From positions 51,905,402 through 51,969,401 of the forward strand of contig OX359249.1 of NCBI GenBank assembly GCA_947179485.1: 64,000 bases of DNA, read 5' to 3'. Origin of the DNA: Allacma fusca (lineage: Eukaryota > Arthropoda > Collembola > Symphypleona > Sminthuridae). Made by a program: the position numbers and the translations under genes. Each line of letters starts with the position of its first letter. Position 1 is the stretch's first letter. Under the pieces are notes generated by a model. The model had not been told where the DNA came from, did not search any database, and saw only the letters and a program-made list of their open reading frames with translations. Positions 55,920 to 64,000 of the stretch are shown here, in pieces.

Positions 55920-56125
55920 TGTTATGTTGAGCATCAAATACTTTTAAAAACATATTTTTTAGCATCAAATACATTAAACATTTAGCATTACATATGTTTT
56001 TACTCCACGCGCTTTTGTGCAGCACTTACTTAGAGCATTGTGCCTCTTCAGCGACGATATGTTTCTTAACATCAAATATATGTAATTTTATTACATTTTC
56101 AGCATCTAATACTTCTTTTTTCGGC
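55920..56125. repeat. AGCATCAAATAC iterations with a solitary element end
   Basis: Five loose copies of AGCATCAAATAC-like sequence (about 55930, 55961, 55981, 56070, 56102), irregularly spaced. Between them at 56040-56060 is the TGCCTCTTCAGCGACGATAT end shared with the elements to the right. Confidence 0.5.
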
Positions 56126-56212
56126 ACCTTTTTTCCATTTATTAATAATATTATTTCATATGTTTATTTTTAGCACAATTTCCACGGTATTATACCCATA
56201 AAGGATGAATGT

Positions 56213-56872
56213 ATATCGTCGGTGAAGAGGCAAAATGATCTAGGTGCATTTTCGATGAGTATTGAAATGATCTACATGACTATTCGTCTACAGGCAAAAT
56301 GATCTAGATACGGGTCTCTTTAAAAGAGAAATGAACAACATTCAGGTTTGCTCTAAAAACAAAATGTTCTACATTGGTCAATCAAACTTAAAATCAAATG
56401 AGAATTTAACAGTACAACTTAATAAACCTTCAATTTGAGTTCACACTCGAGTCGCAACCTGAAACTCACATTTTTAATTTCAGTGCAACTTGAAATTATT
56501 CAATTTTGAACTGAAGTATAACTTTAAGTGGAGCTTGAAATTCCTGTTTGAAATTAGTGTGACTTGAAACTCGAGTGTGGTTTGAAATTTGAGAATGTAC
56601 TCAAATGTAACTTGAAACTCGACTTTGAACTCAAGTGTAACACAAATACAACTTGAAGTGTAACTTGAAAGATCAGTTTGAGATGAAAGGTTTTGTATAT
56701 TAAGTTTATTATAAATTGTATCTAGACCATTTTGTTTTTAAAATTTCATTCAATTAGTTTATTTTGCCTTTACAATTAGTGAAACTGCATACAATCGGAA
56801 ACGCATCTATATGGATCATTTTGATTGTTAAGAAACGCAACTATATTATTTTGCCTCTTCACGGAGGATGTC
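56213..56872. mobile_element. Element A: diverged relative of element B with a different core
   Basis: Seen: the left end ATATCGTCGGTGAAGAGGC and following bases match element B, with further iterations of the AAAATGATCTA unit at ~30-34 bp steps (56231-56375). The right arm (56720-56872) carries inverted versions ending TTTTGCCTCTTCACGGAGGAT. The centre (56395-56690) is a degenerate array of AACTTGAAACTCGAGTTTG-like units. It has the same arms but an unrelated core compared with element B. Confidence 0.7.
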
Positions 56873-56957
56873 GTTGCTGAAGAGCCAAAATGGTTCGAAG
56901 TGCTGTACAAAAGCATGCGGGCGTAGACCATTTTGCCTCTTCAGCGACGATATCCTC
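56871..56957. mobile_element. Miniature ~85-bp copy of the same ends
   Basis: Left GTCGTTGCTGAAGAGCC...AAAATGG and right CCATTTTGCCTCTTCAGCGA are inverted copies with only ~45 bp between. It abuts the right end of element A. A similar solitary right end (TGCCTCTTCAGCGACGATAT) lies at 56040-56060. Confidence 0.6.
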
Positions 56958-57001
56958 ACTGTCAGCAATAAAACAGACTTTGGCGATAATTTGGGCACTG
57001 C

Positions 57002-57687
57002 ATATCGTCGGTGAAGAGGCAAAATGATCTAGGTGCATGATCGATTAGAATCAAAATGATCTACATGCAGTTTCACTAAAGGCAAAATGAACTACTTGCA
57101 TTGAATTTTAAAATCAAAATGATCTAGATGTAGTTTCTCTTAAAAGCAAAATGATCTAGATGCAAATTATAATAAAAACAATACGTGTAAACACATTATA
57201 ATGTCAGTATATTAATATGCGAGAAATTAAAAATCTTTTTTATTCCTAAACAAATTAGTTATTCTGCGTTTAAATTATATTATAAAATACAAAATAAATA
57301 CTAGGAGGCAGTAAACCCAAAATTGTAGTTTTTAGGAAAAGTAATGTGATAATGATTTGAGGTCAAATTATATTATTTAATTATAATGAAATTTTATTAA
57401 ATATTTATTCACTGACCCCTTATAATAATTAACAATAATAATAATTTATAATAATAATTACAGTCCTTATAAGCTACGTGTCCTCCTTGCAGAAGCTATT
57501 TTTCTCACACAGAAATTCAGGACAGCATTTAGATCATTTTACTTTTATGGAAAACTGCATGTAGGTCAGTTTGCTTTTAAAAAGACTTGTACCTAGTTCA
57601 TTTTGCCTTTAGGGAAAACGTTATGTAGATCATTTTGATTCTAATCGAGTATGCACCTAGATCATTTTGCCTCTTCACCGACGATAT
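57002..57687. mobile_element. Element B: inverted-arm element with five 32-bp iterations per arm
   Basis: Seen: the outermost 37 bases (57002-57038) and the last 37 (57651-57687) are identical inverted copies, beginning ATATCGTCGGTGAAGAGGC. Inward, each arm contains five copies of a 32-bp unit built around CAAAATGATCTAGATGCA. Reference bases fall at 57020, 57052, 57083, 57115 and 57147 on the left, and 57542, 57574, 57606, 57638 and 57670 on the right, so the period is 31-32 bp throughout. Arms are ~160 bp; the ~350 bp centre is AT-rich and non-coding. Bases next to the ends include TA/AT, but no clean target duplication is evident. It is a non-autonomous DNA element or structural foldback. 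Superfamily unknown. Confidence 0.8.
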
Positions 57688-57944
57688 ACTTGCTTATTCT
57701 ATTTAATCTTCAAAGTCGAAACAGTTACTCCTTGGAAGAAAAAAGTGACCCAAATTGCAAATATTTTTTGTACGCTAAATGCCAGCATGTACTTTAACAA
57801 GGTTCAGATTGAAATTCAGGATCGGAAAGTTTGAAAAACAAAAATCTGGAACCAGAAGAGGGGCTAGAATATGGAATAAGGAAAAGAAATTATTCAATAC
57901 TTATGAAGAAGCTTACAATTACCTACATACATACTTCGAGGCTG

Positions 57945-59683
57945 TGCTCGGGTACGGTTACTCAAAATTGGTACCCTTACCCGTATCCATACCCGAAATG
58001 CGGGTATTGCAATATCTGGTATCTATACTCGTACCCATACCCGAGTATCCGCGTACAATGTTTTGATACTCATACCCACAGTGTAATTTGAAACCATGTA
58101 CCTGTACTCGCACTGTACCTGTAAAAGTATTCGAAAATTGTGCCCAGGGTATCTCAAAACCGTACCCGTACTCGTACCCGGGTACTTTATCCAGTTTTGT
58201 TTAAATGCAAAAGTACGTTATATGTAATAATGTGTGACACCTTAGTGTGTAATTTTGACTAGTTAGGTCGTTATTTGATATTGCATACTTTCATTGTCGA
58301 GTAAAAAACTAGATGCGTTTTCGATTAGATAAAATTAAATTACATACTTTCAAATTGTATACTTTCGATTCATCAAAACATTACCCGCAGAAGTGTATTA
58401 AAAATCAAAAGTACAACGGACTAGGTAAAAATCAGTACATTAAATTGAATTACTGTATGGCATCGCGTCTTTTAGCATGCCCCACATGCAGTATTTACAA
58501 ATTGTAGAACATTTCCCGTAGAACGACAACGTAGAAGCAGTAGAGGTAAAATAAATATTGCATTTTCCAACATTCTCCAATTGTTTATAAAAATTTGTTA
58601 CGGTACTTTGGTTAAAAGAATACTTCTAAAGGTATAGTTTTTTATTGAAATTTCAAAAGTAAAGTACCCTCTGCTTTATTTGTATTTCACGACTTTTCTT
58701 TAAGATAGATGAGGAAATCAAAAGCTTTCCAAATTTAAATTATTTCAAAACAATTCTGTAAAGCAAACGCAGCAAACCTATAAGAAAAATAAAGGTTTTG
58801 CTTTACTTTCTTGACCGCTGTATGGTTTTGAGCTGCGAGTATGGAACTAGTTTTAAAAAATCTGGAAGAAGCTGCTAAAAAGTACGTAAGTCAAATATTT
58901 TTCCCCTTTGATTGTTTACAAGTTGATGGGCCGAGTGTTGCATGGCACCCAGTACATATGCACATGCATACAATATTTTTGTTCATTGACAACTGATTTG
59001 CAGTTCTTGCTTGGGACTTGACGACTCTGCTTTTCACTTATTAATTTATTCGGCCTTTTACACTCATTTTCTCATCTCATTAGCTCTGTCTACATATAAT
59101 TCATTAATACCTTCTTACGAATGCCCACCTTCTCCTAATTAACCAATAACACAGAATATCTTACCATCTAACTCACCAGAACTCTACTTTGTACATTTTA
59201 TTCATCGTGGCTAATGAAGTAGCATGCACTCGATGTGACAAAGTACTACATTACGAAGAAATTATATACAAAATGTCGTTGAATCCTTTTCACTATTTCT
59301 ATTTTGTTATAATAGTTCCTCACCAGTGTTGATTTATTTATAATTCCTAAAACATGTTTCCCTAAAAGCGTATATTTGAGCTACACAGTACTACATACAC
59401 GTACTCCAGGTAGTAAGACTAAAAGGGTACAAACAATAAGCTATGTAGATATATTCAGAAACTAAATAAATCGAAAGAAGTTTCAAACGTATCGGCATTA
59501 TGGTAAGAAAATCGTTAAAATGTCTGAATTTTCAACGTATCCAAATACTCAGGTATAATGTTCGTGGGTACGAGTAAATGACCCCTACCCTTACCCGGGG
59601 GGTATATGCCTATTTTCAAATCTTTGCATTGCACCCGTACCCGCTTACCCGAGTATTACACAAACCCGTGCCGAGCATCATAA
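57945..59683. mobile_element. hAT-like element with TACCCG-rich inverted ends
   Basis: Seen: the left end TGTGCTCGGGTACGGTTAC and right end (reverse complement) TGATGCTCGGCACGGGTTTG are inverted. Both ends (57945-58195 and 59550-59683) are packed with ACCCGTACCCGTACTCG-type hexamer runs. The ~1.3 kb interior holds no recognisable transposase; a 64-codon frame at 58313-58507 is unassigned. Known: some arthropod hAT elements have GGGTA-rich subterminal repeats. The family call is tentative. Confidence 0.5.
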
Positions 59684-63288: not shown

Positions 63289-64000
63289 TCAACCCCTACG
63301 AGCGCTTTCATTTTGCCACGGAACTTGCCCCTCCATTGACACAAAATAGTGCATCACATCATCCCGAATCTTAAACGCTTCAGTGACTGCAATATTGCTA
63401 CCTTGCTGAGGAATGGTTACCAGACCTGTATCGTTTTCCAAAGTTGATCTCCAAATTCCCGGAACCACAATACCGTTTCCCTCATTATCAGCTGTAATTC
63501 CACCAAGGTTCCTGTTGGAAGCCAGAAAGTTGTGAAGAATCACACAGGTTGTGGTAATTAGTACAACAGTGTCAGGTTCTGCATCGATAGGAGTTTCAAA
63601 TATCCTCCATATTGCTGCAAAAATTCCGAATATATTTGCAACTACCATTCGGGCACTAGAAAGACGGTAGTTAAAGATTTTTTGTGATAAGTTCAGCTCA
63701 TGGCGATTACGTCCTGCAAACAGCTTCAATAGATATCCCCGACAAACACTGGTGGTATCACAGAACCATTCTCTATTAGCTTTCCTGTTGGCAAATTAAG
63801 GGTCTGTCTTTCCATCTGGATGCCTACGCTAGATCTCTTCAATATTCCTCCATCCGAGATTGATCCAGGGGTTCCAATATCTACAACTGAGAATCTATAA
63901 TGTGCGGTTGCTATCGCCAACAATACAATTGAGTAGAAGCTTTTGTAGTTATAGTACACAGATCCGGAGTTTCTTGGAGCCTTGATGCGGATGTGTTTAC
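63289..64000 (-). pseudogene. PIF/Harbinger transposase (DDE_Tnp_4), C-terminal two thirds, continues past window
   Basis: Seen on the minus strand, starting at the window edge: KHIRIKAPRNSGSVYYNYKS, then VVDIGTPGSISDGGILKRSS, then IPPVFVGD, then IFNYRLSSARMVVANIFGIF, AAIWRIFETPI and CVILHNFL. These are the conserved Harbinger DDE blocks in order: K-H-I-R-I-K--p--SGS-YYNYK, SDGGIf--Ss-G, -fVGDea, NyRlSRaRmvvEnaFGilaarWRif and CvlHNfl. In the last block the usual catalytic Glu of RMVVENAFG is Ala here. Between VFVGD and LKLFAGR about half a dozen expected residues are missing and the frame shifts (near 63726), so this copy is probably dead. The tail YFVSMEGQVPWQ fits the family's normal C-terminus. 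Flanking terminal repeats were not identified. Confidence 0.85.

Follow-up and report, generated by a model that had tools for sequence, protein, structure and literature searches.

An ATAT-flanked, dispersed MITE family with phased subterminal repeats in Allacma fusca

Introduction

The window analysed here, a 64,000-nucleotide stretch of the Allacma fusca genome (GenBank assembly GCA_947179485.1, contig OX359249.1, positions 51,905,402 to 51,969,401), contains at 57002-57687 an element of striking symmetry. An initial annotation made from the letters alone described identical 37-bp tips and, on each of two inverted arms, five units almost exactly 32 bp apart, and it recognised the tips as those of no named superfamily. 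What is this element: a single local inverted duplication or a member of a mobile family? If mobile, which target does it duplicate, what would move it, and what role might the phased array play?

Results

Anatomy of the element

Direct reading together with a repeat search bore out a symmetric element with identical 37-bp ends: the stretch 57651-57687 is an exact inverted copy of 57002-57038, and the outer 72 nt of the element are 93% complementary by the repeat search. The outer four bases of each end are ATAT. As shown below from other copies, this outermost ATAT on either side is the target duplication, and hence the tips proper are 33 bp rather than 37 bp and the element body, which begins CGTCGG and ends CCGACG, is as given in Table 1. 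A pattern search confirmed the five units per arm, with steps of 32, 31, 32 and 32 bp in the left arm and four steps of 32 bp in the right arm. When an 18-mer unit was searched with up to three mismatches the window gave 14 matches, nine of them inside the element, versus 0.09 expected and a maximum of one match in any of 100 shuffles. The second right unit was missed by this search because it has four mismatches to the 18-mer, one above the limit. The 678-bp body of the window element contains no open reading frame of 80 or more residues.

Table 1 Features of the element and of the neighbouring family copies in the window
Feature	Position	Strand	Remarks
Left target site duplication, ATAT	57002-57005	.	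Read directly; 4-bp length from other copies
Non-autonomous DNA transposon (MITE), 686 class	57006-57683	+	Class named by length including both ATATs; body 678 bp
Left tip	57006-57038	+	CGTCGGTGAAGAGGCAAAATGATCTAGGTGCAT
Left arm, B-type	57020-57164	+	Five units, starting at 57020, 57052, 57083, 57115, 57147
A+T-rich interior	57165-57523	.	No ORF reaching 80 aa; stretches bordering the arms in common with the 853 class at about 90%
Right arm, A-type	57524-57669	-	Five units, ending at 57669, 57637, 57605, 57573, 57541 (57652-57669, 57620-57637, 57588-57605, 57556-57573, 57524-57541)
Right tip	57651-57683	-	Identical inverted copy of the left tip
Right target site duplication, ATAT	57684-57687	.	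Read directly
Minimal 85-bp-class copy	56872-56949	+	Sister-type tips, one unit per arm
More degraded family copy	56217-56867	+	Intact left tip; right tip with three mismatches
Right tip of another degraded 85-bp-class copy	56036-56056	-

The element belongs to a large dispersed family

The search of the whole assembly with the tip that the initial annotation had proposed returned many dispersed copies, and this disposes of the case in which no others exist. The 25-base tip, with up to two mismatches and with the sister tip counted in, was found at 1334 forward and 1328 reverse places genome-wide, whereas the reversed-tip control gave none in either orientation (0 + 0). The sister tip, which reads CGTCGC and differs by one base from the CGTCGG tip, accounts for 335 + 333 exact places. 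At two tips per element the family is estimated at about 1,300 element equivalents. An element search of the 392.7-Mb assembly, in which 40 of 1338 candidate regions were scored, gave at least 125 matches on seven contigs, arm-to-arm matches included.

The element at 57002-57687 is thus a copy of a dispersed and sizeable MITE family, having inverted terminal repeats, a short non-coding body, many dispersed copies and a target duplication. The mirror symmetry would also be produced by a single local inverted duplication lacking mobility. However, copies on at least seven contigs, with differing flanks and 4-bp duplications, have already refuted that explanation, and we give it practically no weight.

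Among 75 two-tip copies, a sample shaped by the choice of loci, there are length clusters (both ATATs included) of about 85 bp (82-91), 334-367, 680-697 and 826-854 bp. Mean pairwise difference is 3.5% in the 853 class (11 copies) and 3.7% in the 686 class (25 copies), both sets being biased to well-kept copies as these were entered via exact tips or best matches. The 853 and 686 classes have about 226 and 242 bp of their ends in common at about 90%, and their interiors differ.

A 4-bp target duplication, nearly always ATAT

Across 47 distinct copies, the 4-mer just outside the CG..CG termini reads ATAT, each position agreeing in 45-47 of the 47; the copies from the tip search had been preselected for ATAT at one end and those from the element search had not. 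The preceding base is C or T in 35 of the 47 copies, and the following base is A or G in 44. Altered 4-mers next to exact tips were found at 13 places for an outer base and at five places for an inner base. Fourteen of these stretches were read, and both ends were recovered in 11. Four of the 11 copies have a matching non-ATAT 4-mer on both sides (TTAT, ATAA, ATAC and GTAT), and from these four concerted changes it follows that the duplication is 4 bp; a 2-bp TA duplication within a fixed ATAT is ruled out by the same changes. In the remaining seven, ATAT is intact at one end and the 4-mer at the opposite end differs by a single base, which in six of the seven is the outer one. This excess at the outer base is higher than a plain 4-bp duplication followed by random mutation would suggest, where inner and outer changes are expected to be equal, although the numbers are small. 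These seven one-sided copies are L151, L153, L156-L158, L160 and L161, and L011 is another outer-base case.

Empty sites were compared at two loci. At L016 the alignment of all eight paralogs read is ungapped over one ATAT, which in seven of the eight is part of a TATATAT run. The three relatives read for the C10 site hold one 4-mer, ATAC; these are about 81% alike to the query, resemble one another and lie on one stretch of C9. The two empty sites rule out insertion with no duplication at all. A gap of 7 bp at the L018 site was set aside, the relatives there being only 76% alike. Seven pairs of elements lie back to back across one common ATAT (four exact, three with one mismatch elsewhere), and hence a duplicated ATAT can itself serve as a target. 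Alignment of insertion sites, also proposed at the outset, therefore defines a target duplication of 4 bp, nearly always ATAT.

Minimal copies and the neighbourhood of the element

The minimal copy in the window (Table 1) is flanked by ATGT (56868-56871) and ATAT (56950-56953). The more degraded copy to its left has ATAT before its left tip (56213-56216), and the two abut through one common 4-mer, the ATGT at 56868-56871. Altogether four family copies or remnants are crowded into the 1.7 kb of 56036-57687. Besides these copies, degenerate GTACCCGTACCC-type repeats lie beside the element at 57940-58190, and L074 includes a stretch with CCCGGGTA.

Copies of about 85 bp having differing flanks and ATAT-like 4-mers were seen at L088, L092, L128, L133, L142 and L144 as well as in the window. 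A 34-mer core of this class occurs at 190 + 165 places genome-wide. In 20 fetched stretches ten had one flank set, five lacked a complete tip pair and five had other flanks. The ten with common flanks are one insertion amplified inside another repeat. Given these and the five stretches without a complete tip pair, the 355 places are no count of insertions.

Conservation of the arm array

The two arms of an element are unlike. The A arm is the left arm of the 853 class and the right arm of the 686 class, and the B arm is the right arm of the 853 class and the left arm of the 686 class. Ten arms from five elements of the 686, 853, 367 and 1243 classes each show five recognisable units, and both arm types can be traced into the sister family. 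Between sister families homologous arms are 94% alike in the tip, 91% in CAAAAT, 70% in the rest of the unit and 76% in the spacer. CAAAAT is better kept than the spacer (p = 0.003) and unit positions 6-17 are not (p = 0.18); nor are entire units when every pair of arms is included (p = 0.15). These p values should be taken as no more than guides, CAAAAT having been picked after looking and the columns of related arms not being independent. Position by position, conservation is highest from the last part of a spacer into the following unit, approximately TARAR(G/T)CAAAATGNNCTA, and the tip holds a similar core, GAAGAGGCAAAATG.

Because this core is found also in the tip and is the part best kept between the sister families, it is plausible that the 32-bp array consists of transposase-binding sites. 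The cores would fit repeated recognition sites for one protein spaced three helical turns apart. The alternative is an array without function, its units being remnants of tandem arm growth in an ancestor that persist as the arms are copied whole. Minimal one-unit copies have dispersed independently, and neither unit positions 6-17 nor whole units are better kept than the spacers, as this alternative would have it. However, two sister families with spacers about 24% different retain the CAAAAT core and the 31-32-bp step in each of their arms, and the tip contains the core again. We regard a functionless array as the less probable outcome. The ordered protein-binding array suggested by the initial annotation gains from the phase and the tip-shared core, both kept between sister families. 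The dispersal of the minimal copies speaks against its being essential: as copies having one unit per arm also disperse, the full array is not required for movement. One arm is also shortened in L047, a copy of 408 bp.

Search for an autonomous partner

A longer copy having the same tips and encoding a transposase, as the initial annotation had envisaged, was not present among the copies looked at, the tips being followed on C1 below about 53 Mb. The first 100 tip places listed on C1 (0.1-52.4 Mb) comprise 39 pairs and 22 lone tips. The longest tip pairs among those listed, L061 (1684 bp) and L062 (2589 bp), contain no transposase; both are 853-class copies with nested insertions and without a long ORF. 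In L062, at about 350-1910, inverted repeats of a many-paralog family are nested in the 853-class copy. Six of the 22 lone tips lie in tip-search loci, 15 were read about 450 bp inward and one was seen via an element-search match only. Ten of the 15 read inward run into 853- or 686-class sequence and two (L067 and L070) are sister-type copies. L066/L080, a copy of 1243 bp, has no long ORF, the copies at L065 and L074 are both short and degraded, and L055 showed no convincing mate and no convincing ORF in the 9 kb read. Glycine-rich cuticle-like frames were seen at L080.

For the sister tip the first 100 places listed give 32 pairs as well as 36 lone tips. Of the latter, 35 were read at least in part, mostly over 421 bp each; C1:40638002 was left aside, as was a 1,228-bp pair at C1:49033770. 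At L086, L095 and L124 a mate was not found in the stretch read (mostly 421 bp). The locus L081 (C1:40625900-40638026) is a tandem duplication with a 3,965-bp step and three equally spaced tips; both units read carry a 367-bp sister-family copy, and C1:40638002 is the third unit. No transposase was found in any copy or lone-tip stretch read on C1 below about 53 Mb. Tip scans gave no matches in viral contigs and a single match, without ATAT before it, in prokaryote contigs. As the tips were followed on part of one contig, an autonomous partner may exist elsewhere in the genome.

Discussion

We read the window element, a copy lacking coding sequence but having the tips, the arm anatomy and the 4-bp duplication of a dispersed family, as a non-autonomous cut-and-paste transposon (MITE) moved by a transposase supplied from elsewhere that uses inward sites and arm synapsis and duplicates a 4-bp ATAT. 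We put the probability of this reading at about 85%. The transposase would recognise the tip, CGTCG(G/C)TGAAGAGGCAAAATG, and also an inward row of up to five sites with the core ~TARAR(G/T)CAAAATGNNCTA every 31-32 bp, a repeat that would place the bound molecules on one face of the helix. It would then bring the unlike A and B arms together and excise the element, and the excised element would be joined to a 4-bp staggered cut at ATAT, giving the ATAT duplication. Presumably one transposase moves all size classes, and the autonomous partner is probably rare, lost, diverged or beyond the part searched. Binding of the transposase to the units, which would then help synapsis or binding strength, is suggested by the pattern of conservation in the arms. 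The array is the most interesting part of the family, although its role is one that we infer from sequence comparison, and the natural five-unit and one-unit versions offer a ready test of the role of subterminal repeats in transposition.

The closest published relative is BmMITE-10 of the silkworm, which in the accessible part of that report has an ATAT duplication and the tip CGTCGCTGTCAAACCAAAATCTGCTATGTGCAA, is 258 bp and 70% A+T, is present as 159 full-length and 142 fragmentary copies, and was called novel by its authors (PMC2997013). In an ungapped comparison, 23 of the 33 positions of its tip agree with the L066/L067 tip, and 22 of 33 with the window tip. None of 100,000 shuffles reached 22 or 23 (the largest value was 19), and the best unrelated place in the window scored 20 of 33. 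The first eight bases of the BmMITE-10 tip are those of the sister tip CGTCGCTG. BmMITE-10 thus has in common with the present family an ATAT target duplication and a tip related over 33 bp. It differs in coming from another species and in showing about 70% identity even in the tip, the 33 bp of the tip alone being compared. The statement that the tips belong to no named superfamily therefore holds at the superfamily level, but a related MITE family was published in 2010 (PMC2997013). A match to a catalogued family, which the initial annotation had named as telling against it, is found to that extent, although BmMITE-10 was itself left unassigned by its authors in the text available from that source (PMC2997013). 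A second silkworm family from the same report, BmMITE-8 (266 bp), is filed there as TA-duplicating and Stowaway-like (PMC2997013). The tip listed for it, TATATCGACGCTTGAAAGGCAAAC, can be read as ATAT followed by CGACGCTTGAAAGGCAAAC and by eye is close to CGTCGCTGAAGAGGCAAA.

It is conceivable, though we regard it as doubtful, that the ATAT/CGTCG elements and BmMITE-10 (perhaps also BmMITE-8) are the non-autonomous remains of one unrecognised transposon lineage. If so, the hallmarks of this lineage would be ATAT as a strict target, termini of the form CG..CG, two dissimilar arms and an array phased at 32 bp whose core repeats that of the tip, and its transposase would be either undescribed so far or not yet linked to such elements. 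The orphan MITE group acquires a second host, a defined anatomy of its ends and, in the 4-bp ATAT, a firm rule for the target. The target rule and end anatomy provide handles for finding or assigning the transposase.

We leave the superfamily of the ATAT/CGTCG elements open. A Sola2-like lineage, with a transposase that makes 4-bp A+T-rich duplications, is our first guess and a tentative one. The A. fusca family duplicates 4 bp, nearly always ATAT, and for slime-mould Sola2 elements AWWT duplications of 4 bp are reported, ATAT, AAAT and ATTT being named in the part of the report available (PMC3627910). Sola inverted repeats are given as 11 to 1124 bp in the text at hand (PMC10741241). However, the target of the present family is stricter than AWWT, and a 4-bp duplication also falls within the published ranges available to us for MuDR/IS256 relatives (4-10 bp), Ginger (4-5), CMC (2-4) and KolobokP (3-5). 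The slime-mould elements, which resemble ours in the target duplication, differ in that they are coding and have 12-21-bp inverted repeats (PMC3627910).

Several other superfamilies were rejected on the targets and termini given in the sources available. Tc1/mariner (Stowaway), with its 2-bp TA duplication, does not account for the four copies that duplicate all four letters of a non-ATAT 4-mer. The ATAT duplication and CGTCG tip differ from the TTAA target and CC[C/T]T tip of piggyBac, as do ATAT and the CG..CG termini from the TTAA target and RR..YY termini of Kolobok. The duplications of hAT (5-8 bp), P (7-8) and Merlin (8-9) are longer than the 4 bp found here. PIF/Harbinger, ISL2EU and other PHIS elements were set aside because a 4-bp ATAT does not agree with their published targets (PMC4482050). 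ISL2EU is alike in using a palindromic A+T 4-mer, A|AT|T, but it duplicates 2 bp and the order is AATT, whereas here 4 bp are duplicated and the order is ATAT (PMC4482050). In the open-licence literature we did not find a transposase tied to ATAT/CGTCG tips.

A variant of the last group would have the family moved by one of the many IS5-like PHIS transposases (PF13359) of this genome, one with a 4-bp target. PF13359 is matched at least 160 times in the genome, with 150 of 299 candidates scored, duplications of 0 to 4 bp are reported for PHIS relatives in the section available (PMC10045372), and two PF13359 transposases lie 1.77 kb from 686-class copies, one on C10 and one on C13. However, a single repeat, at least 5 kb long, is present at both the C10 and the C13 locus (97% alike), with the 686-class copy in an identical position. 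Related stretches on C9 are without that copy, which is therefore nested in the repeat. Moreover, by eye and among the matches listed, no PF13359 match lies within 4 kb of a tip on C1 below 52 Mb, and the targets given for the PHIS groups in the accessible text (TWA, A|AT|T, ANT, CWG and C|TNA|G, with none for Spy) do not fit (PMC4482050). We think a PHIS source unlikely.

The C10 (L063/L020) and C13 (L064) repeat has an IS5-like transposase frame of 463/457 aa, with a DDE_Tnp_4 match and, below its cut-off, HTH_Tnp_4, and upstream of it a cysteine-rich frame of 157 aa that matches no Pfam family. In the window itself, the minus strand at 63289-63729 has a partial DDE_Tnp_4 match (5.5e-10), a fragment of a Harbinger-type transposase.
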